A stretch of DNA of 43,247 bases from positions 1 through 43,247 of the forward strand of contig JALHMV010000005.1 of the NCBI GenBank assembly GCA_022843855.1, in the 5' to 3' direction. Shown piece by piece: positions 15,503 through 27,253 of this stretch; position 1 is the first letter of the stretch; every line of letters starts with the position of its first letter. A program made the translations under genes and the position numbers. Under the pieces are notes generated by a model. That model did not search any database, had not been told where the DNA came from, and worked only from the letters and a program-made list of their open reading frames with translations. The DNA comes from Patescibacteria group bacterium. GTDB lineage: Bacteria > Patescibacteriota > UBA1384 > 2-12-FULL-50-11.

Positions 15503-16822
15503 ATGAACGGCTATATTCGTCTCCGAGGCGGCCGGCCGTTAGTCGGGGAGATCGCCCTGCGTGGGGCGAAAAATTCTGTACCAAAGTTAATGGTGGCCGC
15601 GCTTTTGACCGACGAGCCGTGCATCATTCGTGAAGTGCCGAAGATCGAGGATGTCGAAATCATGATGACGTTGTTTAAACGTATAGGAGTCGATGTTCAA
15701 GAATTACGTCCGGGTACTCTCCAGATCACCGCTCAGAAAATGCGTCAATTGGCCGACAGTGACTTGGGCGGAGTGACGGGCAGAAGTCGGATTCCAATCC
15801 TGATGTGCGGACCGCTGCTAACGCGTTTCGGCGAGGCACTCGTCGCGAAAGTCGGCGGCTGCGATATCGGACCGCGTCCAGTCAACTTTCATATTCAGGC
15901 ACTCTCGGAATTGGGCGCACGCTACGAGGAGAAAAACGATCGGGCGTTCTTTCGTGCGAAGAGGCTCAAGGGTGCGGCGGTAACGCTTGAATATCCAAGC
16001 GTCGGAGCGACCGAACAGGTTCTGTTAGCGAGCGTATTAGCCGATGGGGTGACCGAACTGCACAACGCCGCTGTTGAACCGGAGATAATGGATCTTATCT
16101 GTTTTCTTCAGAAGATGGGAGCGATTATTTCGGTAGATACCGATCGAGTGATTACGATCGAAGGAGTAAAGCGCCTCGGCGGGACGATCCATACGGCGAT
16201 TGTCGATCGGATCGAAACGGCATCGTGGGCGTGCGCCGCGCTCGGTACTAACGGAAAGATCTTTGTTCGTAACGCCGCACAGCAGGACATGTTAACGTTT
16301 CTGAATAAGTTCCGCCAGGTTGGCGGCGGTTTTCAAGTCACCCGAGACGGCATTACGTTTTTCCGGCAGCGGGAGAGGCTGGAACCGATCACCATCGAAA
16401 CCGATATCCACCCTGGCTTCATGACTGACTGGCAGCAGCCGTTTGTTGTCGCGCTCACTCAAGCGCACGGAAGTTCGTTGATCCGCGAGACGGTCTACGA
16501 AAGCCGGTTTGGCTACACTGACGCGTTAAACACTATGGGCGCGCAGATAGCGGTCATTAACGAACCGATCGAGGAGATACGGTCTAAATTTGGTCGGCGT
16601 AACTATCGCCAAAGCGCTCGCGTGACCGGACCGACTGCGCTTAGGGGCGCAACGATCAGCGTTCCCGATCTCCGCGCCGGGTTTTCCTACGTCATCGCTG
16701 CTCTCATCGCCGAAGGAGAGAGTCGTATTGAGAACTTTAACGTCCTCTCGCGTGGGTACGAACATCTCACTGCCAAGCTGCAGACACTTGGGGCTGAAGT
16801 ACTCGAAGTAAAGATCGACTAA
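15503..16822 (+). CDS. murA: UDP-N-acetylglucosamine 1-carboxyvinyltransferase
   Basis: MNGYIRLRGGRPLVGEIALRGAKNSVPKLMVAALLT; VGGCDIGPRPVNFHI keeps the catalytic Cys of the GGCxIGxRP loop. Confidence 0.93.
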   Translation: MNGYIRLRGGRPLVGEIALRGAKNSVPKLMVAALLTDEPCIIREVPKIEDVEIMMTLFKRIGVDVQELRPGTLQITAQKMRQLADSDLGGVTGRSRIPILMCGPLLTRFGEALVAKVGGCDIGPRPVNFHIQALSELGARYEEKNDRAFFRAKRLKGAAVTLEYPSVGATEQVLLASVLADGVTELHNAAVEPEIMDLICFLQKMGAIISVDTDRVITIEGVKRLGGTIHTAIVDRIETASWACAALGTNGKIFVRNAAQQDMLTFLNKFRQVGGGFQVTRDGITFFRQRERLEPITIETDIHPGFMTDWQQPFVVALTQAHGSSLIRETVYESRFGYTDALNTMGAQIAVINEPIEEIRSKFGRRNYRQSARVTGPTALRGATISVPDLRAGFSYVIAALIAEGESRIENFNVLSRGYEHLTAKLQTLGAEVLEVKID

Positions 16823-17496
16823 TCAAAGGGGTTTGACTTGCCGAAATTGCCTTCGGTCTCGATGTTTGGCACAGTTGTGTACGGAGTAAATCTGTTAAAC
16901 AACGCCTCGGCATCGGCGAGGAAGGTCTGTTTACCAGTAAAGGTTTTAGGAGAACTCACTCTTGATGAGGCTTGACCAGTGATCGTTGCCGTCGTTTTCT
17001 CCCCCTCGGTAGTGATATCAATCGCTGTCAGTTGATTCCATCGGCTGAGCGTTCGGAGTTGGACGATCAGTTGTTTGACCTGATCGAAGCTCATCGATCC
17101 GCTGATGGTGAATTTGGTGATAGCGGTCTGACCGGTTCCCTCTTCGCTGACCGGCGCCGAAAGCGGCACTTCAATGGTCGCGGTACTGAGAGAGAGCGAG
17201 GCGAGGAGGCCGTCGAGCTGCAGAATTAAGATCTCTGGCTGAGGCGACATCGGAAGCGAGAGCGTCGCTTTTTGATACAACTCGTCGAGCGTCTCTGGCT
17301 CTTTTTCGATCGAGCCGAGCGTGGCGAGGAACTGCTCGTTTTCGCTCACTTGGGCAGCGAGCTGGATGAGTTCGGCGCGACTGGCGCTGACGGAGCGGAG
17401 CTGAGCGGGGATGACAAGCCAACCGATCCCACCAACCAAACCGAGAAAGACGAGCGTCAATATCCAGAATGTCAAGTTACGACTGAGTCCTCTCAT
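16819..17496 (-). CDS. pilO: Type IV pilus assembly protein PilO-like
   Basis: Single N-terminal TM, coiled-coil, position after pilM-pilN; LYQKATLSLPMSPQPEILILQLDGL. Confidence 0.7.
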   Translation of the reverse strand: MRGLSRNLTFWILTLVFLGLVGGIGWLVIPAQLRSVSASRAELIQLAAQVSENEQFLATLGSIEKEPETLDELYQKATLSLPMSPQPEILILQLDGLLASLSLSTATIEVPLSAPVSEEGTGQTAITKFTISGSMSFDQVKQLIVQLRTLSRWNQLTAIDITTEGEKTTATITGQASSRVSSPKTFTGKQTFLADAEALFNRFTPYTTVPNIETEGNFGKSNPFD

Positions 17497-18053
17497 TCTT
17501 CCCCCTTAACTGGTGTGTAGGTAGCGCTGAGCGAGAAGCTAAAGACCTTTCGATTATCGACGATTGATTCTGAAAGCGAGAGGATGGTGGCCTTGGTGAT
17601 TGCGTCAGAGGCTTCGAGCTTATCACGGTAGAGGACGATCGAGCGCCGGTCGAATGTTGAGCCGCTGATCGCGATATCGATCGATGCTCCTTGGGCTGTT
17701 GTTGCGACCCGGGTACTGGTCAGAACTGTGTCGGTCGGGGTAGCGCTGGCGATTTCATTTAAAATCGCTTCCCACCGATACTTTTCTTGGGCAGTTGTTG
17801 CAGCTCGAAGACGATCTTCGACAAAACTTGCTTTCGTGACGATCTCGTTTTTGGCGCGCCGTTGCGAGGTCAACTGCTCAATCTGTGATCGCCGGTCGCT
17901 GATGTCGCTCTGTTGCATAAATCCCCAAGTCATCAGTCCGGCTATCGCGAGACCAACTAAAGCGATAACAATGAGGTAGATAACCGCCACGTTGATAAGG
18001 GCGCTGCGAGTACGCCGGGCTTCCTTTAGCTCTGGTGGAAGCAGGCTGAGCAT
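17493..18053 (-). CDS. pilN: Type IV pilus assembly protein PilN-like
   Basis: MLSLLPPELKEARRTRSALINVAVIYLIVIALVGL (NLLP-like N-terminus and TM), adjacent to pilM. Confidence 0.8.
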   Translation of the reverse strand: MLSLLPPELKEARRTRSALINVAVIYLIVIALVGLAIAGLMTWGFMQQSDISDRRSQIEQLTSQRRAKNEIVTKASFVEDRLRAATTAQEKYRWEAILNEIASATPTDTVLTSTRVATTAQGASIDIAISGSTFDRRSIVLYRDKLEASDAITKATILSLSESIVDNRKVFSFSLSATYTPVKGEE

Positions 18054-19099
18054 TACGATGTCCTCATCGCTAGGCCAACAGCGTCGGCGAAGGTATGAGA
18101 GAATCGGGTTGAGATCGGGTAATGATGGGTATCAATCAAGCCAAACGGGCTACCGATCCGGCTGGCGAGCCCTGTCTGTTGTTGAAAGACTTCAACAATA
18201 CCAGCGATGTTAGTGCCTGAGCCGGAGAGGATAACCTCCTCTATCCTCACGCCGGGACAGACTCGGTTCTCAAAGAATTTGGTGATATGGACGAGTTCAT
18301 CGAAAACCGGGCTAAACTCTTTTTGGAGCTCGCCTGGACTTGGCTGGGTGTCGAGCAACGCCTTGACCCCCCACGGTACCGTGGATGTGACACGAATACT
18401 CTGGCCCTCAACGATTGATGCGCCGGTGCTGCCGGCACCAAGATCAAGAATGGCACGAGCTTTGTCGTCGTTCTTGCCGATGACCGCCCGGGCGATCGCT
18501 CCTGGTTTGATATCGATACCGTCTAGCTCGAGTCCGGTGTGTTCGACCGTCGCGATCACTGATTCGATCAACGACTTTTTAGCCGCGACGGCAAAAACGG
18601 TTAGTCCATCAACTGATTCCGATTCGTTCACGTTGGTTGCTTCTTTATCAGTTGTCTTGCCAGGTTTTGAGTTGGTTTTAGCGGCGGCTTGATCGATCGC
18701 TTTGGCGTCGAGCGGCTTGCATTTGGTCGTTACGACCTCGTAATCAAAGTAGAAGTCCTCAAGGTTAATCGAGAGTTTCTCAGCCAACTCAAAGGGGATC
18801 GCCTCAGCAAGCTCGCTTTCGCTTAAGAGCGGCATGGAAAACGTTCCTGAAAATATGACTGATTCTGGCAGTGCGATCATTGCCTTACGTCCGGTGATCG
18901 GCGCCGGTTTCGCCAGCCTCAAGGTGTCGGTGATGATCTTCGCGATCTCTTCGCTGTTGGTTAAGGCGTCGGTCTGCCATGAGCTAACAGGAATTGGGGC
19001 GATATTCATCCCCTTAAGCCGCCAGTGCTTGCCTTGCTTAGTGAGGCCGATGACCTTGACGGTCTCGTAGCCGATATCAATACCGATTGTCGTGCTCAC
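18053..19099 (-). CDS. pilM: Type IV pilus assembly protein PilM
   Basis: TIGIDIGYETVKVIGL, ARAILDLGAGSTGASIVEGQSIRVTSTVPWGV (actin-like/PilM). GTG start with GGAGGG upstream. Confidence 0.9.
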   Translation of the reverse strand: MSTTIGIDIGYETVKVIGLTKQGKHWRLKGMNIAPIPVSSWQTDALTNSEEIAKIITDTLRLAKPAPITGRKAMIALPESVIFSGTFSMPLLSESELAEAIPFELAEKLSINLEDFYFDYEVVTTKCKPLDAKAIDQAAAKTNSKPGKTTDKEATNVNESESVDGLTVFAVAAKKSLIESVIATVEHTGLELDGIDIKPGAIARAVIGKNDDKARAILDLGAGSTGASIVEGQSIRVTSTVPWGVKALLDTQPSPGELQKEFSPVFDELVHITKFFENRVCPGVRIEEVILSGSGTNIAGIVEVFQQQTGLASRIGSPFGLIDTHHYPISTRFSHTFADAVGLAMRTS

Positions 19100-19144
19100 A
19101 TTCCCTCCGTATCCAGGATACCGCAATTTGGCTCAAAAGGTCAG

Positions 19145-20866
19145 CTAGTTGCTAATCTCGCGCCAGGTACCTTTCTTGAACTGCCACCCGGCGCCGGGCC
19201 CGCTGGTGAAATTCATATTGGCGAGTCCGGACTCGTAGGTAACGCTTGAAGAGTTGGATAGTGTGATACCCCAGGCGGTGGCTTCTTTGGCGGTGGCCGA
19301 GTTGGAAAACTGGATCCACGACTTACCGGCGTAATAAATCACTCCGGTGGATGCGTTGGAAACGAAAATTGATGTTTGGCTTTTGGCGTCACGTGCAGTA
19401 AGTAGCAGTATATAACTACCAGTCCCGGCGCCTTGGAAGATAGCCGAGTTAGAGACGGTGATCGTTCCGTCGCTCAGTACCACACCAGAATTGGTGCCGT
19501 AGCCGGGGTCGAGACGCATCGTTGACGAGTTGGAGATATTGATATTGCCGGTTACCCAGAGCGTCCCCGTGATCGTCAGAATCGAGGTATTACTGAGGTT
19601 GAGGTTGCCCTCGATTTTCCTTGGGCCGAGACTGGCTTGAGTTGAACCGCTGAGGTTATAGTCGCCGCTATGGGTGCCGCCGGCAACAGCGTCGTTTTTC
19701 CAGTCGGTTATGACTCCGTCAGAAATCGGCATCGCCTCCGGCGGCGGGTTACTGATAATGCAGGAGGCGTTGGGGCAGTTGGATCCGCCAGCGCTCGTGT
19801 TGATGATCTGATTGGCTCGGGCAATGCCGCCGACCGTCATCCCTTCGATCCGAGTGATGGTACCGCCGAGCCAGACCTGAAAGGCCAGATCGCCGCCGGC
19901 GTTGGTCCAGGTGGGGCTACCGGAACAGCAGTTGCTGGTGTATTTGCCGGTATTGTTGGCGTACGAATCGGTCGAATCTTTGCGCCAGTTCCAGTAATTG
20001 GTTGCCGAGTTGGAGTTGTAATCAAGCACGATCCAATACTTGGTGTTGTTGCTGAGGTTCGGTGGCGATGAAAACGTGACGTCGATCCAAGACGGCGTCA
20101 GTCCGACCGACGCGTGGGCGATGACCGCTGTGGCGAGGCTACTGGTATTGGGGCGGTTGCTGACGTCGGTGGCGATCCGGACGGTGAGATTGGAAGTCGG
20201 ATTGCCGACTTTTCCAAGTAGAACCGACGCTTTTGTGAGGGCAGCCGAGCTAGTAGCGGTAAACGACTGAGCGATATCGCGATTAGTTGAGGCGGTGGCG
20301 AAGAACTGATCGTTGTCTTCAAGCGTCGCGGCCACGCTTGGGGTATCGGACAGGCCGCCGGCAACGGTGGCGTCACCGGTGATCGTGGCGCCGTTGCTGC
20401 CGATGATGTTGCCGTTACTGAAGACGTTACCGTTGACCTGGGAGCTGTTGGTCATAGAGAGGCCACCGCCGTCGACTTGAATGCCGTAAAAGAATTCGAC
20501 GTTATCTGAATCAAGACTCGCCTCGACTCGAATTGTTCGCGTCGAACGAGGAGTAGTATTGTTGGGGACGTAACCGGTTGACTCGATCGTCCGAGTACTG
20601 CCCGTCCCGCTGACTGTCACCGTAAAGGTGCCGTTGCCGAGGGGCGTATTCGTCTCGCCAGCGTAGTTGCCGTTGGTATTGAGTTGGCGGATGGCGTGTT
20701 CGGCGCCGGCTTCAGCAAGATTCAGCGATTGATAGGCGAGATACGATCGATTGGTCGAGGCACCCTCGCGGTGAACGAGCTGGAGCGACACGGTTGTGAG
20801 GGTGAAGAGAATGCCAAGCACCACCAGGGCAAACGCGAGAATGTGACCAGACGATTGTTCCTTCAT
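19145..20866 (-). CDS. PilX-like pilus-associated protein with inserted beta-sandwich domain (choice-of-anchor type) and C-terminal Ser/Asn-rich repeats
   Basis: N-terminal GHILAFALVVLGILFTLTTVSLQLVHRE...NLAEAGAEHAIRQL; AQSFTATSSAALTKASVLLGKVGNPTSNLTVRI...KYWIVLDY; SNSS/SNSA repeats. Confidence 0.7.
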   Translation of the reverse strand: MKEQSSGHILAFALVVLGILFTLTTVSLQLVHREGASTNRSYLAYQSLNLAEAGAEHAIRQLNTNGNYAGETNTPLGNGTFTVTVSGTGSTRTIESTGYVPNNTTPRSTRTIRVEASLDSDNVEFFYGIQVDGGGLSMTNSSQVNGNVFSNGNIIGSNGATITGDATVAGGLSDTPSVAATLEDNDQFFATASTNRDIAQSFTATSSAALTKASVLLGKVGNPTSNLTVRIATDVSNRPNTSSLATAVIAHASVGLTPSWIDVTFSSPPNLSNNTKYWIVLDYNSNSATNYWNWRKDSTDSYANNTGKYTSNCCSGSPTWTNAGGDLAFQVWLGGTITRIEGMTVGGIARANQIINTSAGGSNCPNASCIISNPPPEAMPISDGVITDWKNDAVAGGTHSGDYNLSGSTQASLGPRKIEGNLNLSNTSILTITGTLWVTGNINISNSSTMRLDPGYGTNSGVVLSDGTITVSNSAIFQGAGTGSYILLLTARDAKSQTSIFVSNASTGVIYYAGKSWIQFSNSATAKEATAWGITLSNSSSVTYESGLANMNFTSGPGAGWQFKKGTWREISN

Positions 20867-21489
20867 ACTGCCTTATTTCGTAGTATAACCGTTGTATCGA
20901 ACGAACGGGTAATTGTTCGGTCGTTGACGATCCGGCGAGAGGTCAGCGTCAGCTTTATTCGTCTCGCAGCCGTGAGGTTGTGAGTCCCGGGCAGCAGCTC
21001 AGCGCCGGCAGCGTTGTAATACTGGATAGCGAGCGCACCGACCTCGCTGTGGACGGTCAGCGGTGAATAGTAATTGGCACGGACGCTGGTTCCGTGAGCG
21101 CTCATTAATCGCAGGAGCGCTGCATTGTCTTTCTCAAAAACGATGTAGTCGTCGCCGGTCACGATGGTACCGCCGCTGTCGATCGGCGGGAGCCGGAGCA
21201 CGAGAGTATCGCTATCCGAAGTGTACGTCGTTGAGTTGATCGTTGTGGCGCTGATAACTGATGACGCACCCCAAATCTGCTTCGTCATCTCGTCGAGACT
21301 GAAGCGAGCGGCTCGCTGCAACTCACCGTATGCCTCATGGGCGACTTGGGCCTTCCAGCCGTCAGCCAGCGACTGGCTAATTACCAGACCAACGCTGATA
21401 GAGATGGCGATGGCTACCAGCGACTCCAGGACGGTGAATCCTGCCTTACGATGAGAGTAGCGAGCCGAGCTCTGATGAGTGAATACCAT
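20863..21489 (-). CDS. Type IV prepilin-like protein (PilW/GspJ-type)
   Basis: RKAGFTVLESLVAIAISISVGLVI: prepilin cleavage G/F-T-x-x-E and hydrophobic helix. Confidence 0.85.
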   Translation of the reverse strand: MVFTHQSSARYSHRKAGFTVLESLVAIAISISVGLVISQSLADGWKAQVAHEAYGELQRAARFSLDEMTKQIWGASSVISATTINSTTYTSDSDTLVLRLPPIDSGGTIVTGDDYIVFEKDNAALLRLMSAHGTSVRANYYSPLTVHSEVGALAIQYYNAAGAELLPGTHNLTAARRIKLTLTSRRIVNDRTITRSFDTTVILRNKAV

Positions 21490-21493
21490 TTTC

Positions 21494-21880
21494 TTACCCA
21501 GCGATGCCCCCTTGACCGAGCAGGGTGACAAGAGTAATTGCCTCTGACTCTGGTCGATTCTGCCAATAGACTCTGATCGTAATCTGCTTGATTTTATCGT
21601 TGCCGTTGTAGTGGGTAACGTACGTTTTGGTATAGCCGCCGGGCAGCTTAGAAGTTGCTACGGCCGGCGGGTTGGCGTTGAGCGTTGCGTTATCGAAGCC
21701 GGCTAGTCGAATCGCATCGACCGTTTCCTGAGCCAATTGAGCCGCCGCCGTGATATTACGCGAGTGTTGGGTGTAGCGAAACGAAAGCGAGAACATCCCG
21801 AGCACGGTGAGGATGGCTAAGGCAAAGACGGTAGCAGCAACGAGCGTTTCCATGACGGTCATGCCGCGACGCTTGCTCAT
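21494..21880 (-). CDS. Type IV prepilin-like protein (PilV/GspI-type)
   Basis: MSKRRGMTVMETLVAATVFALAILTVLGMF: G/M-T-x-x-E prepilin N-terminus. Confidence 0.85.
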   Translation of the reverse strand: MSKRRGMTVMETLVAATVFALAILTVLGMFSLSFRYTQHSRNITAAAQLAQETVDAIRLAGFDNATLNANPPAVATSKLPGGYTKTYVTHYNGNDKIKQITIRVYWQNRPESEAITLVTLLGQGGIAG

Positions 21881-23076
21881 TGAAAGTCGCTTACCAGCTT
21901 GTAGATCGGTCCGAGAACGGATGCGACGATAAACGCCACCCCGATACCCATCACCAGCAACATAATCGGCTCGATCAGGGAAGCGAGGTTTTTGGTAAGG
22001 TTTTCAACCTCGCTGTCGTAGAAGCGGGTTATTTCTTGGAGAACCGATTCGATATTGCCGGACTCCTCGCCAAGGGTGGTTAACTGGCTGACCATCGGCG
22101 GAAACAACGGTTCTTTAGCCATCGCCGCCGAAAGCGGTTTACCGCTTTCGACTTCTTTGACGATGCGATTAAACGCGGCTTCGTAATGTTTGTTATCGAT
22201 GGTTTTTTGAACGATCCGAATCGCTTCGATGATCGGTAGGCTGGCTTTAATGAGCATGCTCATGGTTCGGGAGAACGTTGACATATAAACCTTAGTCGTC
22301 AACATGCCGAAGACTGGGAGTTTGATTTTGAGCTTGTCGTAGACAAGCCGTCCGCGCGGGCGGCCGAACCAAAGCTTAAGAAGATAGAGGAGGCCGATAA
22401 AAATCGGGGCGACGATATAGAAGTAATTTCGTAAAATTTCGCTAGTGGTGAAGAGCAGTTTGGTCGTGGTTGGCAGTTCGGCGCCAAAATCAGCGAAGAC
22501 GGTTTTGAGGCTGGGCAGAACAAAGAAAACGATTAAGAACGCGACGCCGATTAACGCGATAAAGATAATAGCGGGATACATCATCGCGCCTCGGACCTTG
22601 GAGATGAGATCGGCTTGTTTCTCCTGTTGGTCCGCAAGGTTGAAGAGAACGTCGGCGAGCTGGCCGGTCTGTTCGCCGGCTCGGATAACGGCGGTGTAGA
22701 CCTCCGGAAAAACCTTCGGGTACTTCATCATCGTTGTCGAAAGCGGCTGGCCGCCCTTAACCTGAGCGATGAGCTCCAAGATAATTTTCTGAAAATGTTT
22801 ATTGTTGGTTTGGTGGTGCAGCGCTTCGAGCGCTTTGACGGCCGGCAGGCCAGCCTTGATCATGACGGCGAGTTGGCGGGTGAAGATAATCCGCTCCTTG
22901 AGCGGCACTTTGGTCCGTTTAAATAGTGTGAATCCTCCGCTGCCGGCGACGATTCTAATCGGAACAAGTCGACGTTCGCGTAAAATCCGGCCAGCCGACG
23001 AGACGTTATCTGCTTCAATCTGACCGGTCTGTTTTTTGCCTGCCGCGTCTTTGGCGGTATAGGTAAACGTTGGCAT
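21877..23076 (-). CDS. pilC: Type IV pilus inner-membrane platform protein PilC (GspF family)
   Basis: FTYTAKDAAGKKQTGQIEAD, FTRQLAVMIKAGLPAVKALEAL, TLGEESGNIESVL, LIEPIMLLVMGIGVAFIVASVLGPIYKL. Confidence 0.95.
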   Translation of the reverse strand: MPTFTYTAKDAAGKKQTGQIEADNVSSAGRILRERRLVPIRIVAGSGGFTLFKRTKVPLKERIIFTRQLAVMIKAGLPAVKALEALHHQTNNKHFQKIILELIAQVKGGQPLSTTMMKYPKVFPEVYTAVIRAGEQTGQLADVLFNLADQQEKQADLISKVRGAMMYPAIIFIALIGVAFLIVFFVLPSLKTVFADFGAELPTTTKLLFTTSEILRNYFYIVAPIFIGLLYLLKLWFGRPRGRLVYDKLKIKLPVFGMLTTKVYMSTFSRTMSMLIKASLPIIEAIRIVQKTIDNKHYEAAFNRIVKEVESGKPLSAAMAKEPLFPPMVSQLTTLGEESGNIESVLQEITRFYDSEVENLTKNLASLIEPIMLLVMGIGVAFIVASVLGPIYKLVSDFQ

Positions 23077-24968
23077 CAGTCTTTGGTGACGCGCCAGACT
23101 TCTTCAATCGTGGTTAAGCCGTCGAGCGCCTTCAGAATACCGTCTTGCTTGAGGGTAATTAGTCCGTCCTTTCTGGCCTGAATCATGAGCTCCGAGCTGG
23201 ACGCGCGTTTAATTGTGAGTTGTCTAACTGGTTCGGTTACCGCGAGCACTTCAAAGATTCCGATTCGGCCTTTGTAGCCAGAATTACCACACGCCGCACA
23301 CCCACTCCCGATAAAGAGTTTTCTCTTGGCGTTTGCTTCGCTTTTTTCGGGCTCGGGTAGGGTGTCGATCTCTGCCTTGATGACGGTTAGGTGTTCAGGT
23401 TTCGGGTCGACTTCCTGTTTGCACTTCTCACAGATTTTGCGGCACAATCGTTGGGCGACGATAGCGTTGGTACTTGATGTAATTAGAAACGGCTCGATAC
23501 CCATGTCGAGCAAGCGAGGAAGAGCTCCGGCAGAGTCGTTGGTGTGCAAACTTGACAGAACGACGTGTCCAGTGAGGGCGGCGTTGATAGCGATATCGGC
23601 GGTTTCTTTGTCTCGAATTTCACCAACCATCACGACATCTGGGTCTTGTCGCAAGATTGAGCGCAAACCGCTGGCAAAGGTAAAGTTGATCTTGGAGTTG
23701 ACTTGGCTCTGGTTAACACCGGGCATCCGGTACTCAACTGGATCTTCCATCGTAATAATGTTGATCGCCTCGTCCTTGATCCGATGAATCATCGCGTAGA
23801 GCGTTGTTGATTTACCGGAACCAGTCGGACCAGTGATGAGCGTCATGCCGTGCGCTTTGGTGAGGTTGTCTTCAAGAACCTTTAAAGCCCGTCCGCGAAC
23901 GCCAAGATCGTTGAGGTTTAAGACCCCGCCCGAGTGATCCAGGACACGAGCGACAACTTTTTCGCCGTTAACTGTGGGAAGCGTCGAGATACGAAAATCG
24001 ATCTTGGCGCCGTCAAGCAGGATCTGAATCCGCCCGTCTTGCGGTAGGCGAGTTTCGTCGATCTTGAGGTTGGCGAGAATCTTAACGCGGCTCGTGATGG
24101 CCGCTTGGACGTCTTTCGGAAGCGTCAGAACTTTGCGTAAAACGCCGTCGATGCGAAAACGGACGGTCACGTCTTCTTCTGAGGGCTCGATATGTATATC
24201 TGAGGCTTTCTCTCGAACCGATCGCTTAAGGAGCGTCGTCACAATCTTGGCGGCGGGTGAGGTCTCGGTAATCTCGTCTTGACTGACTCTCTCGGCCTCT
24301 TTAGCTGCCTTCTCTTCGTCCTCCTCCGAAACCTCAACCAGTTCGCCGAGCTCGGATTGCATGCCGGAGTACTGATCGAGGATGTGATTGACGTCCTCGG
24401 CGGTTGAGATAAACGATTTCACGATCTTGCCCGAGGCTTTGCGAATCGCGTTAAAGGCTTCTTCGTTCTCCGGGTCTGTCATACCGATAAAGAGCGTTTT
24501 ATCTTTCAGGGCGAACGGCACTGCCTGGTATTTGCGAGCGATCGGTTCGGGCACGAGGGCGAGGATGTCTTTGGGGATCGTCTTATCAACCAATTCGATA
24601 AATTGGATGTTGGATTCGCGGTTATGAAGATCGGTGACGCGGAATTGCTCATCGACTGGTTCAGTTGTTTTGCCGGCGTTGCTCGAAGCGGTGACTTGAT
24701 CGGTCAGATCTTCGGTCAGATCAAAATCGGGGGTGGTGGTGGCGGCAAGCGTAATATTCTGCCGTTTGCCGCCGAAAGTCGTTGTAATCTTACGTTCTGG
24801 GAGACGGGTGAGCTTGAAGTTACCGAGTCCCTTCAGCTCAACTGGTTCGCCGCCGGCGAGTGTTTCGCCGATAATCTCGGTCAGACCCTTGAGGTAGGCA
24901 CGTACTCTAAAGCCGGGTTGTCCGGTTTTTGTGCTTAATTTTTTGACGATATCGTTGGTGACTGCCAC
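23076..24968 (-). CDS. pilB: Type IV pilus extension ATPase PilB with N-terminal HU/IHF-like domain
   Basis: GPTGSGKSTTLYAMI, EDPVEYRMPGVNQSQVN, RQDPDVVMVGEIRDKETADIA, CxxC pairs. Residues ~1-95 resemble DNABII proteins: DIVKKLSTKTGQPGFRVRAYLKGLTEIIGETLAGGEPVELKGLGNFKL. GTG start with GGAGGG SD. Confidence 0.93.
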   Translation of the reverse strand: MAVTNDIVKKLSTKTGQPGFRVRAYLKGLTEIIGETLAGGEPVELKGLGNFKLTRLPERKITTTFGGKRQNITLAATTTPDFDLTEDLTDQVTASSNAGKTTEPVDEQFRVTDLHNRESNIQFIELVDKTIPKDILALVPEPIARKYQAVPFALKDKTLFIGMTDPENEEAFNAIRKASGKIVKSFISTAEDVNHILDQYSGMQSELGELVEVSEEDEEKAAKEAERVSQDEITETSPAAKIVTTLLKRSVREKASDIHIEPSEEDVTVRFRIDGVLRKVLTLPKDVQAAITSRVKILANLKIDETRLPQDGRIQILLDGAKIDFRISTLPTVNGEKVVARVLDHSGGVLNLNDLGVRGRALKVLEDNLTKAHGMTLITGPTGSGKSTTLYAMIHRIKDEAINIITMEDPVEYRMPGVNQSQVNSKINFTFASGLRSILRQDPDVVMVGEIRDKETADIAINAALTGHVVLSSLHTNDSAGALPRLLDMGIEPFLITSSTNAIVAQRLCRKICEKCKQEVDPKPEHLTVIKAEIDTLPEPEKSEANAKRKLFIGSGCAACGNSGYKGRIGIFEVLAVTEPVRQLTIKRASSSELMIQARKDGLITLKQDGILKALDGLTTIEEVWRVTKD

Positions 24969-25009
24969 GTTCCCTCCTTTTCCATCCTAACAGACCGCTA
25001 GCCAACGAA

Positions 25010-25050
25010 AAAATGAACAAAAAAATGACCGCGGCAGGGCACCGCGGTCA
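25010..25050 (-). terminator. Intrinsic terminator after the ECF sigma gene
   Basis: TGACCGCGG(25026-25034)/CCGCGGTCA(25042-25050) 9-bp stem overlapping the sigma stop codon; minus strand continues TTTTTTTGTTCATTTTTT. Confidence 0.88.
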
Positions 25051-25659
25051 GGGTGGGGGGACGCAACCGTTGCGACCAGCCTTCTCTTGGGTAGGCGACC
25101 ATACAGACGACTTACCAGCCGATTCGGCCAACAGCGCTTGAAGTTGTGCTCGCCCGCGGACCAAGCGACTTTTGACAGCGCTGGGGGTGATCCCCAGCTC
25201 GCTCGCGACGGCTTCAACTTCTCCTCCCTCGAACATAATCAGACTGACCACATCGCGGTTGATCAGCGGTATTTGTCGCGTGAGTCGTTTCGCATCATCT
25301 ATCTCCAGTCGCTGAAGTACCTCGTTCTCGATTTCGTTCGGAGAGATAAGGGCATCGCCCTGTTCGTCGATGGGTAGGACGTGCTTTTGGCGCTTTCGCC
25401 AATCGAGAGCGCTTCTTACGACGGTTGTGCCGATGTATCCAAGTAATTGCCGCTCGTTGTCGTGGCGGATCGTGCCGCTTTGAGCGGCACGCAAGACCTT
25501 GAGGCAGGTCTCACCATACATATCTTCAGCCGCATCTTGGTTGCCCGTATAATGCCAAGCTATCCGAATGAAACGGGACCGAAATTGTGTCAGAAGCCGC
25601 TCGATCGTAGCTCGGACTTGATCCCCTGACGCTGCGGGTGGTGGTTGGAATGTTTTCAT
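25048..25659 (-). CDS. ECF-type RNA polymerase sigma factor
   Basis: ERLLTQFRSRFIRIAWHYTGNQDAAEDMYGETCLKVLRA (region 2), VEAVASELGITPSAVKSRLVRGRAQLQ (region 4). Start MKTFQPPP after AAGGAG. Confidence 0.88.
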   Translation of the reverse strand: MKTFQPPPAASGDQVRATIERLLTQFRSRFIRIAWHYTGNQDAAEDMYGETCLKVLRAAQSGTIRHDNERQLLGYIGTTVVRSALDWRKRQKHVLPIDEQGDALISPNEIENEVLQRLEIDDAKRLTRQIPLINRDVVSLIMFEGGEVEAVASELGITPSAVKSRLVRGRAQLQALLAESAGKSSVWSPTQEKAGRNGCVPPP

Positions 25660-25774
25660 GACGCTCCTTGGTAAAAGGTGCAAGTCCCAGGATTGTAATC
25701 AAAAACACTTCGATTGAGAACACGGTACGAACGCAGCCCGCTGAGTCGTGACTTTCTAGGCTGTTCGTGGCAGT

Positions 25775-27253
25775 ATGAGCATCGACATGTCATCGCTTTA
25801 TCGACAGTATCGGCCGCAACAGTTTAGCGATGTTTTAGGTCAAGATCATATTAGTACAACGCTCCAGGCGGCGCTCAAGGCCGATCGGATTGGTCACGCA
25901 TACCTTTTTTCGGGACCGCGCGGAACCGGTAAGACAACGCTCGCTCGTCTTTTTGCCCGGGCGATCAACTGCCCGAAGCGCCTCAAGAGCGGTGACCCGT
26001 GCGGAAAATGTTCGATCTGTCAGGAGATTGCGGCCGGAAAGGCCGTTGATGTATTTGAGATTGACGCGGCATCTAATCGCGGGATCGACGAGATTCGTGA
26101 GCTCCGTGACCGAATCGCTTTTAGCCCAGTTCAAGCTAAGTACAAGGTCTTTGTTATCGATGAGGTTCATATGCTGACGAAGGAGGCGTTTAATGCCTTG
26201 CTCAAAACCCTCGAAGAGCCGCCGGCTCACGCAGTATTTATCTTAGCTACGACCGAGCTCCACAAGGTGCCTGATACGATCGTTTCGCGCTGCCAGCGGT
26301 TTGCGTTTCATCGAGCTTCGGGGGAGGCGCTGACTAAATTGCTTAGCGAAACTGCTGCGCAGGAGAAGATTGAGATCAACGAAAGCGGTATCGTAGCCGT
26401 TGCCGAACGAGCAGACGGTTCATATCGTGACGCGCTGACCCTGCTCGGCAACATCGCGACGCACACTGGTTTGCTCGACGCAACCAAAGTCCGTGAGCTC
26501 CTCGGGCTGCCGCACACCGAAACCGTCAGCCGAGTTTTGGAGCTGATTCAAACAGGCGGAGCAACCGAACTGGCCGAGGTTCTCCGTACCTATATCGCCG
26601 ACGGCCTTGACTTGCCGTCGCTGGTAAAATCGATCGCCGATGAGTGCAAGAACGCACTTCTGAACGGATCAGCTGCCCACCCGCCGGAAGAATTAGCGCA
26701 ACTGCTCGAGCAGCTCCTCCTGAGTCTGGCTCGTTCGCGCACCTCGACCGATCCGACGGCGCTGTTAAGCGCTCATCTTATCGGCCAAGCGCTTAATCGA
26801 AGTCAAACAGTACCGCCGCCAAGCGCGCCGATCGTACGCGACGTTCGGCCACCTGCGGCGCCTTCAGCCGAACCGCCGACCGTTGACGCCGTCGTTTCTG
26901 CTCCGGCTCCGGCTAAGCCGGTCGCGATGCGAGCCGATACAGCGGCCGACTTTTGGCCGCATTTCCTCGAGGGAATTAAGGGCCACAACCACGCGCTCTA
27001 TATGGTAGTTCGCTCGGCCGCGCTTGAAGGACTCACTGATGACAAGGTCGTCATCGCTGTCAAATTCCGTTTTTACGTTGACCGGTTAACAGAAATTCGC
27101 AATAAGAAGATTATCGAGAACGTTGCCAGCGAGGTTGGCGGTCGCCGGCTGGGGCTAGAGTGCGTTATTCGTCCCGAGCTTACGGTGGTTGCGCCGACTG
27201 ATGATTTGGTTCGAACAGTTGTTGATGTATTTGAAGTAGAGGAGAGCGCATGA
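25775..27253 (+). CDS. dnaX: DNA polymerase III subunit gamma/tau
   Basis: SLYRQYRPQQFSDVLGQDHI, GPRGTGKTTLARLFARAINC, Zn-binding CGKCSICQ, DEVHMLTKEAFNALLKTLEEPP. Confidence 0.96.
   Translation: MSIDMSSLYRQYRPQQFSDVLGQDHISTTLQAALKADRIGHAYLFSGPRGTGKTTLARLFARAINCPKRLKSGDPCGKCSICQEIAAGKAVDVFEIDAASNRGIDEIRELRDRIAFSPVQAKYKVFVIDEVHMLTKEAFNALLKTLEEPPAHAVFILATTELHKVPDTIVSRCQRFAFHRASGEALTKLLSETAAQEKIEINESGIVAVAERADGSYRDALTLLGNIATHTGLLDATKVRELLGLPHTETVSRVLELIQTGGATELAEVLRTYIADGLDLPSLVKSIADECKNALLNGSAAHPPEELAQLLEQLLLSLARSRTSTDPTALLSAHLIGQALNRSQTVPPPSAPIVRDVRPPAAPSAEPPTVDAVVSAPAPAKPVAMRADTAADFWPHFLEGIKGHNHALYMVVRSAALEGLTDDKVVIAVKFRFYVDRLTEIRNKKIIENVASEVGGRRLGLECVIRPELTVVAPTDDLVRTVVDVFEVEESA

Follow-up and report, generated by a model that had tools for sequence, protein, structure and literature searches.

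The HU-pilB gene and its operon

The window, by which we mean the whole stretch of 43,247 nucleotides analysed here, lies on contig C5 of an 855-kb genome and carries a type IV pilus-like operon on its minus strand (Table 1). At one end of this operon stands HU-pilB, a single ORF of 630 codons (24968..23076, minus strand) with a GTG start, whose product joins an HU/DNABII domain to the N1 domain and ATPase of the PilB/GspE proteins. A first-pass annotation of the sequence had placed an uninterrupted frame at these coordinates, correctly, and had read it as a fusion of an HU fold with PilB; Pfam, AlphaFold2, Foldseek and the family and class surveys described below establish that fusion as real and conserved. 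The literature searched, which covers few subscription-journal papers, yielded no description of an HU-PilB protein, in agreement with the same annotation. The arrangement of Shine-Dalgarno sequence and start codon before the HU domain is kept in the family and in many members of the class, and no Shine-Dalgarno-like internal start was found ahead of the GspE N-domain.

Table 1. Features of HU-pilB and neighbouring genes, in window coordinates
Feature	Position	Strand	Basis
Shine-Dalgarno sequence AAGGAGGG	24972..24979	-	few nt 5' of the HU-PilB GTG; unique within the window
HU/DNABII domain, residues 1-92	24693..24968	-	PF00216, AlphaFold2, Foldseek, dN/dS
Beta-arm of HU domain, ~residues 57-75; tip TFGGKR, not RNPxTG	24744..24800	-	AlphaFold2 strands, alignment
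Variable linker, residues 93-119	24612..24692	-	fast-evolving; low pLDDT
GspE N1/MshEN, residues 120-205	24354..24611	-	PF05157, E 7.4e-15
PilB/GspE ATPase (T2SSE), residues 234-626	23091..24269	-	PF00437, E 2.7e-130
PilC/GspF platform protein	21877..23076	-	PF00482, E 1.4e-64
Pilin-like protein, GMTVME class III signal	21494..21880	-	sequence; no Pfam match
Pilin-like protein, GFTVLE class III signal	20863..21531	-	sequence; no Pfam match
Putative PilX/GspK-like large minor pilin	19145..20866	-	position and N-terminal segment; no Pfam match
PilM	18053..19126	-	PF11104, E 5e-22
PilN	17493..18053	-	PF05137, E 6.4e-8
Putative PilO-like protein	16819..17496	-	operon position; no Pfam match
dnaX, divergent neighbour of HU-pilB	25775..27253	+	Pfam; class survey

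Residues 1-94 match PF00216 (E = 1.2e-9; 38.7 bits against a cut-off of 22.4; profile positions 4-89 of 90), and the same profile is matched by all 30 aligned HU domains of the class at E <= 0.1. Structure prediction, which had been proposed as a check on the N-terminal residues, returned an HU fold complete with its beta-arm: the AlphaFold2 model of the domain (30 rows; mean pLDDT 89.8) has its elements in HU-like order, with two helices, strands, an arm hairpin (E59-65/E68-74) and a closing helix, and a Foldseek search of the PDB places HU/IHF chains on top, the best being 5lvt at a TM of 0.80. The full-length AlphaFold2 model is shallow (17 rows, pTM 0.50), so the position of HU on the motor is unreadable from it; pLDDT falls below 50 at residues 95-120, in the linker. 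In the closest pair of genomes (G006/G007) the HU part has a dN/dS of 0.045, indicative of purifying selection, the ratio being saturated except in the closest pairs. HU-superfamily domains inside larger proteins are also known from the HU-HIG and CCDC81-type families (PF18291, PF18175, PF14908), which differ in their partner domains; several fused-HU members of the class give weak matches to these profiles, and the window domain scores 21.0 bits against PF18291, under the Pfam cut-off of 26.2.

The motor part retains an intact set of ATPase motifs (Walker A GPTGSGKST, Asp box, Walker B, His box and the CxxC pairs), and Foldseek matches it to PilF/PilB at 47% identity. Because it misses the curated NCBIfam equivalog cut-offs (566 of 630 bits for GspE, 550 of 676 for PilB), we describe the window protein as PilB-like and not as a curated PilB or GspE equivalog. 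Inspection of residues 1-210 of HU-PilB revealed no RLGxx-type c-di-GMP-binding motif. The partners PilC and PilM/PilN are present in the operon and PilT is absent from the locus; MurA lies beyond the PilO end, and an ECF-type sigma factor gene (25048-25683, minus strand) sits between HU-pilB and dnaX. HU-PilB resembles the PilB/PilF/GspE ATPases (T2SSE; 5oiu, 5tsh) in its ATPase core, motifs, CxxC pairs and GspE N1/MshEN domain as well as in an operon with PilC, PilM, PilN and minor pilins, and it would serve a second type IV pilus-like system (PilB-PilC-minor pilins-PilM-PilN) as its assembly ATPase. It differs from them in that the HU domain replaces the N-terminal N0 docking region (at this place, ahead of N1, a helical region resembling N0 is seen in the paralogous PilBs) and in that some HU-PilB lineages have lost the ATPase and kept HU.

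Spread of the fused HU domain and its persistence without the motor

The fusion occurs in 7 of the 8 genomes of the window's family (f1, Ca. Berkelbacteria), at 65-78% identity. In the eighth, G005, MurA directly abuts dnaX (locus L133 on G005:C3), the intervening pil operon having been lost; no DNABII protein is detectable anywhere in that genome. A survey of PilB N-termini for the same fusion had also been proposed in the first-pass annotation, and we carried it through the 55 genomes of the class, a group within the small and largely uncultured Patescibacteria, by searching with profiles of the HU domain and of the whole protein and by reading the dnaX neighbourhoods. A fused HU domain was recovered in 37 genomes. 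The ATPase is present in 26 of these (among them G010, with the gene split over contigs, and G028, with two frames), degenerate in 3 and absent from 8. Throughout most of the class, the gene and dnaX are divergently oriented. In family f4 (G014 and G015) the PilB encoded at this locus is intact and has no HU domain. The earlier annotation had allowed that the fusion might prove to be an assembly product or to hide a separate start at the GspE N-domain. The former is ruled out by the independent assemblies that share the fused HU across family and class, and the latter by the conserved Shine-Dalgarno sequence and start before HU with none before the GspE N-domain; with the low dN/dS of the HU part added, an artefact of assembly, annotation or internal start is close to inconceivable. 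Among the matches listed from a scan of 380 Patescibacteria genomes (~330 of them outside the class), in which a weak fusion could be missed, none outside the class had HU in a frame of over 200 aa; beyond Patescibacteria the scope was a scan of close relatives. As far as searched, HU in place of N0 is a class-specific feature.

In three families or family pairs (f22, f23 and f18/f19) the motor is degenerate or gone and HU is retained. The ATPase has lost its motifs in G044, G045 and G047, and it is absent from the proteins of 250-320 aa encoded in G036-G039 and G048-G051. In an HU tree of 92 columns and modest support, the ATPase-less proteins of f23 fall near the intact ones of f24/f25 and those of f18/f19 beside the intact G030, two placements that make at least two losses of the ATPase probable. 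The ATPase-less proteins of f23 carry remains of PilB N2, at 16.5, 12.5 and 9.2 bits against 8.2 for the best shuffle, and the protein of G050 reaches 34.8 bits on an iterated profile; in the C-terminal part of the f18/f19 proteins, such a remnant had no statistical significance alone against shuffled controls. HU is the best conserved part of the protein in the dead-ATPase pair G044/G045 (65% vs 48%) and is less conserved than the ATPase in the intact pair G000/G004 (62% vs 86%).

Two neighbourhoods may be recorded here. The degenerate-ATPase PilB homologues of f22 (L078, L081, L151) adjoin genes for a CheY-like regulator and a PilX-like protein, and in f18/f19 (L146, L147, L075) the gene after that of the ATPase-less HU protein encodes a short, membrane-anchored product bearing a dockerin-like repeat.

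Free HU proteins, the arm and the possible role of the fused domain

Apart from the fusion, the window's family has one kind of DNABII protein, a 'mini-HU' of about 70 residues that lacks the arm and is missing from G005. Such proteins (G000:C12:9562-9723, L005; also L174 and L186-L193) are the only free DNABII in f1, f21 and f11; that of the window's genome, on C12, lies in an 83-aa frame, and in G000 and G003 the gene adjoins an ORF resembling RNase Y. Of the 55 genomes, 34 have both fused and free HU, 3 the fused form alone, 3 the free form alone and 15 neither (Fisher p = 4e-8; p = 3e-4 with one genome per family), the corresponding counts at a completeness of at least 90% being 26, 1, 1 and 10. 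The discordant genomes, several of them incomplete, are G013, G024 and G046 (free only) and G028, G045 and G047 (fused only). Shared ancestry accounts for part of this co-occurrence, and joint decay of unneeded DNABII genes may be a partial cause. On the DnaX tree, joint absence is scattered, with 7 changes, 3 of them forced by well-supported branches; both proteins are absent from G005 within f1, and within f16 both are missing from G033 and present in G034, and these co-losses in f1 and f16 are separate events. In f21 and f11, fused and free HU are both armless and both retained.

The fused domains share with the HU/IHF proteins (DNABII; 5lvt, 1p71, 1ihf) the full HU fold with its arm, the GxGxF core motif and, in most families, a basic net charge; they differ in sitting on a motor, and arm and charge vary among them. 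The first-pass annotation had remarked that the intercalating proline of the RNPxTG-type arm tip is absent. This holds for the window domain, which has a Phe-Gly-Gly tip, and for its family (NFGGKK, TFGGKR, NLNGKK); elsewhere in the class, tips of the NPRDP, RNP or SPRGD type survive. Net charge is +2 for the window domain (+5 for its arm), +1 to +19 for the fused HUs of most families and +3 to +17 for free armed HUs sampled from the phylum; being weakly basic and without the proline, the window domain may bind DNA weakly. Some families are acidic and armless: in f2 the charge is -5 to -10 in most members and the arm is shortened or missing, G012 keeping a near-normal arm length at -8, and in f21 and f11 the domain is armless at about -2 to -4, the motor being intact in all three families. 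A basic, armed HU is found in most families, ATPase-less ones included. HU can therefore be retained beside the motor without DNA-binding features, and with them in the motor's absence. Together with the co-occurrence of fused and free HU, these two patterns narrow the range of possible mechanisms.

These surfaces bear on two explanations other than the one we prefer. Arm loss and an acidic surface beside an intact ATPase in f2, f21 and f11, together with the missing tip proline and low net charge of f1, would suit a pure dimerisation or assembly module that makes no DNA contact, in which HU stabilises the hexamer or docks to PilM or PilC and the arm is a decaying leftover; we judge this unlikely, as the proline-bearing tips and strong positive charge of many families, including ATPase-less ones, speak against it. 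Alternatively, HU homodimers on the PilB hexamer (three per ring) could bind the DNA of the cell itself, as a nucleoid anchor for the motor or in autoregulation of the divergent dnaX/pil promoter region, with free HU uninvolved. Armed, basic domains in most families and a position divergent from dnaX, each conserved even where the ATPase is gone, favour such homodimers, which nevertheless leave unexplained both the co-occurrence with free HU and the acidic, armless HU beside an intact motor; HU proteins, moreover, bind with little sequence specificity, which makes promoter regulation non-obvious, and we hold this explanation to be rather unlikely. Of the roles floated in the first-pass annotation, contact with DNA or the nucleoid is plausible for armed, basic HU, and a dimerisation module, as a pure pairing device, for armless, acidic HU; its proposals foresaw neither that HU would outlive the ATPase nor that it would co-occur with free HU.

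The reading that we tentatively favour from sequence comparison, and to which we give a little less than an even chance, is that the HU module replaces N0, pairs, probably with free HU, and in its armed versions contacts chromosomal DNA. Pairing through the HU dimer fold is favoured because what the HU-PilBs have in common is the HU body and an accompanying free HU, and not the arm. The HU fold would most likely serve as an obligate pairing module, whose dimerisation partner would be the same domain of an adjacent subunit or, with greater likelihood, free HU, which in f1 would be the mini-HU. In armed, basic lineages the pair would contact chromosomal DNA and the motor would thereby be held at, or regulated by, the nucleoid, while in lineages without arm and charge protein pairing alone would remain. 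We infer the pairing with free HU, the DNA binding and the outcome, whether regulation or anchoring, the structure models of HU being monomers. Against this pairing model stand the intact, HU-free PilB of f4, the possibly weak DNA binding of the window domain, the discordant genomes and the chance that shared ancestry or joint decay lies behind part of the co-occurrence. A narrower form is possible but doubtful: fused and free HU would form a heterodimer by which, in armed lineages, the motor is held or gated on the DNA of the chromosome, and the HU protein left after loss of the ATPase would still have a chromosome-related task.

Retention of HU after motor loss and its joint presence or absence with free HU, as read from these genomes, hint at a link between pilus assembly and the chromosome; nothing in the literature searched connects a nucleoid protein with the motor of a type IV pilus. 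If the heterodimer reading is true, pilus assembly would be wired to the nucleoid. In Saccharibacteria, which also belong to the Patescibacteria, life on the host cell requires most of the T4P genes, independently of ComEC (PMC10633639), and a class-wide physical link between motor and HU could therefore reveal how pili are positioned or regulated in these reduced cells. The lineages whose motor is dead or missing, and those that lack the arm or HU, amount to natural mutants and make the question directly testable.

DNA uptake and the other pili of the genome

Of the roles first suggested, DNA uptake, with HU coupling incoming DNA to the pilus motor, proved the least supported and is very improbable. 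PilB, the extension ATPase, is cytoplasmic; incoming DNA crosses ComEC single-stranded, and HU prefers duplex DNA. In its favour, Com and T4P genes are widespread in CPR bacteria, ComEC mediates transformation in Saccharibacteria (PMC10633639) and the window's genome has ComEC. However, the presence of ComEC does not track that of HU-PilB: it was found in 48 of the 55 class genomes regardless of HU-PilB, and a search of the class genomes did not find it in G004, G012 and G049, all of which keep the fused HU, so that a consistent association is wanting and uptake as the main function is unsupported. In G004, a single-contig relative, HU-PilB is kept at 78% identity.

A separate type IVa pilus with PilT also speaks against an uptake role. 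The window's genome has three PilB-type ATPase systems, on C10, on C13 and in the window operon, and the one on C10, a type IVa pilus, comprises PilB, PilT and PilC. The third PilB/GspE-type ATPase, of 588 aa (G000:C13, L171), lies near T4SS-type pilins.
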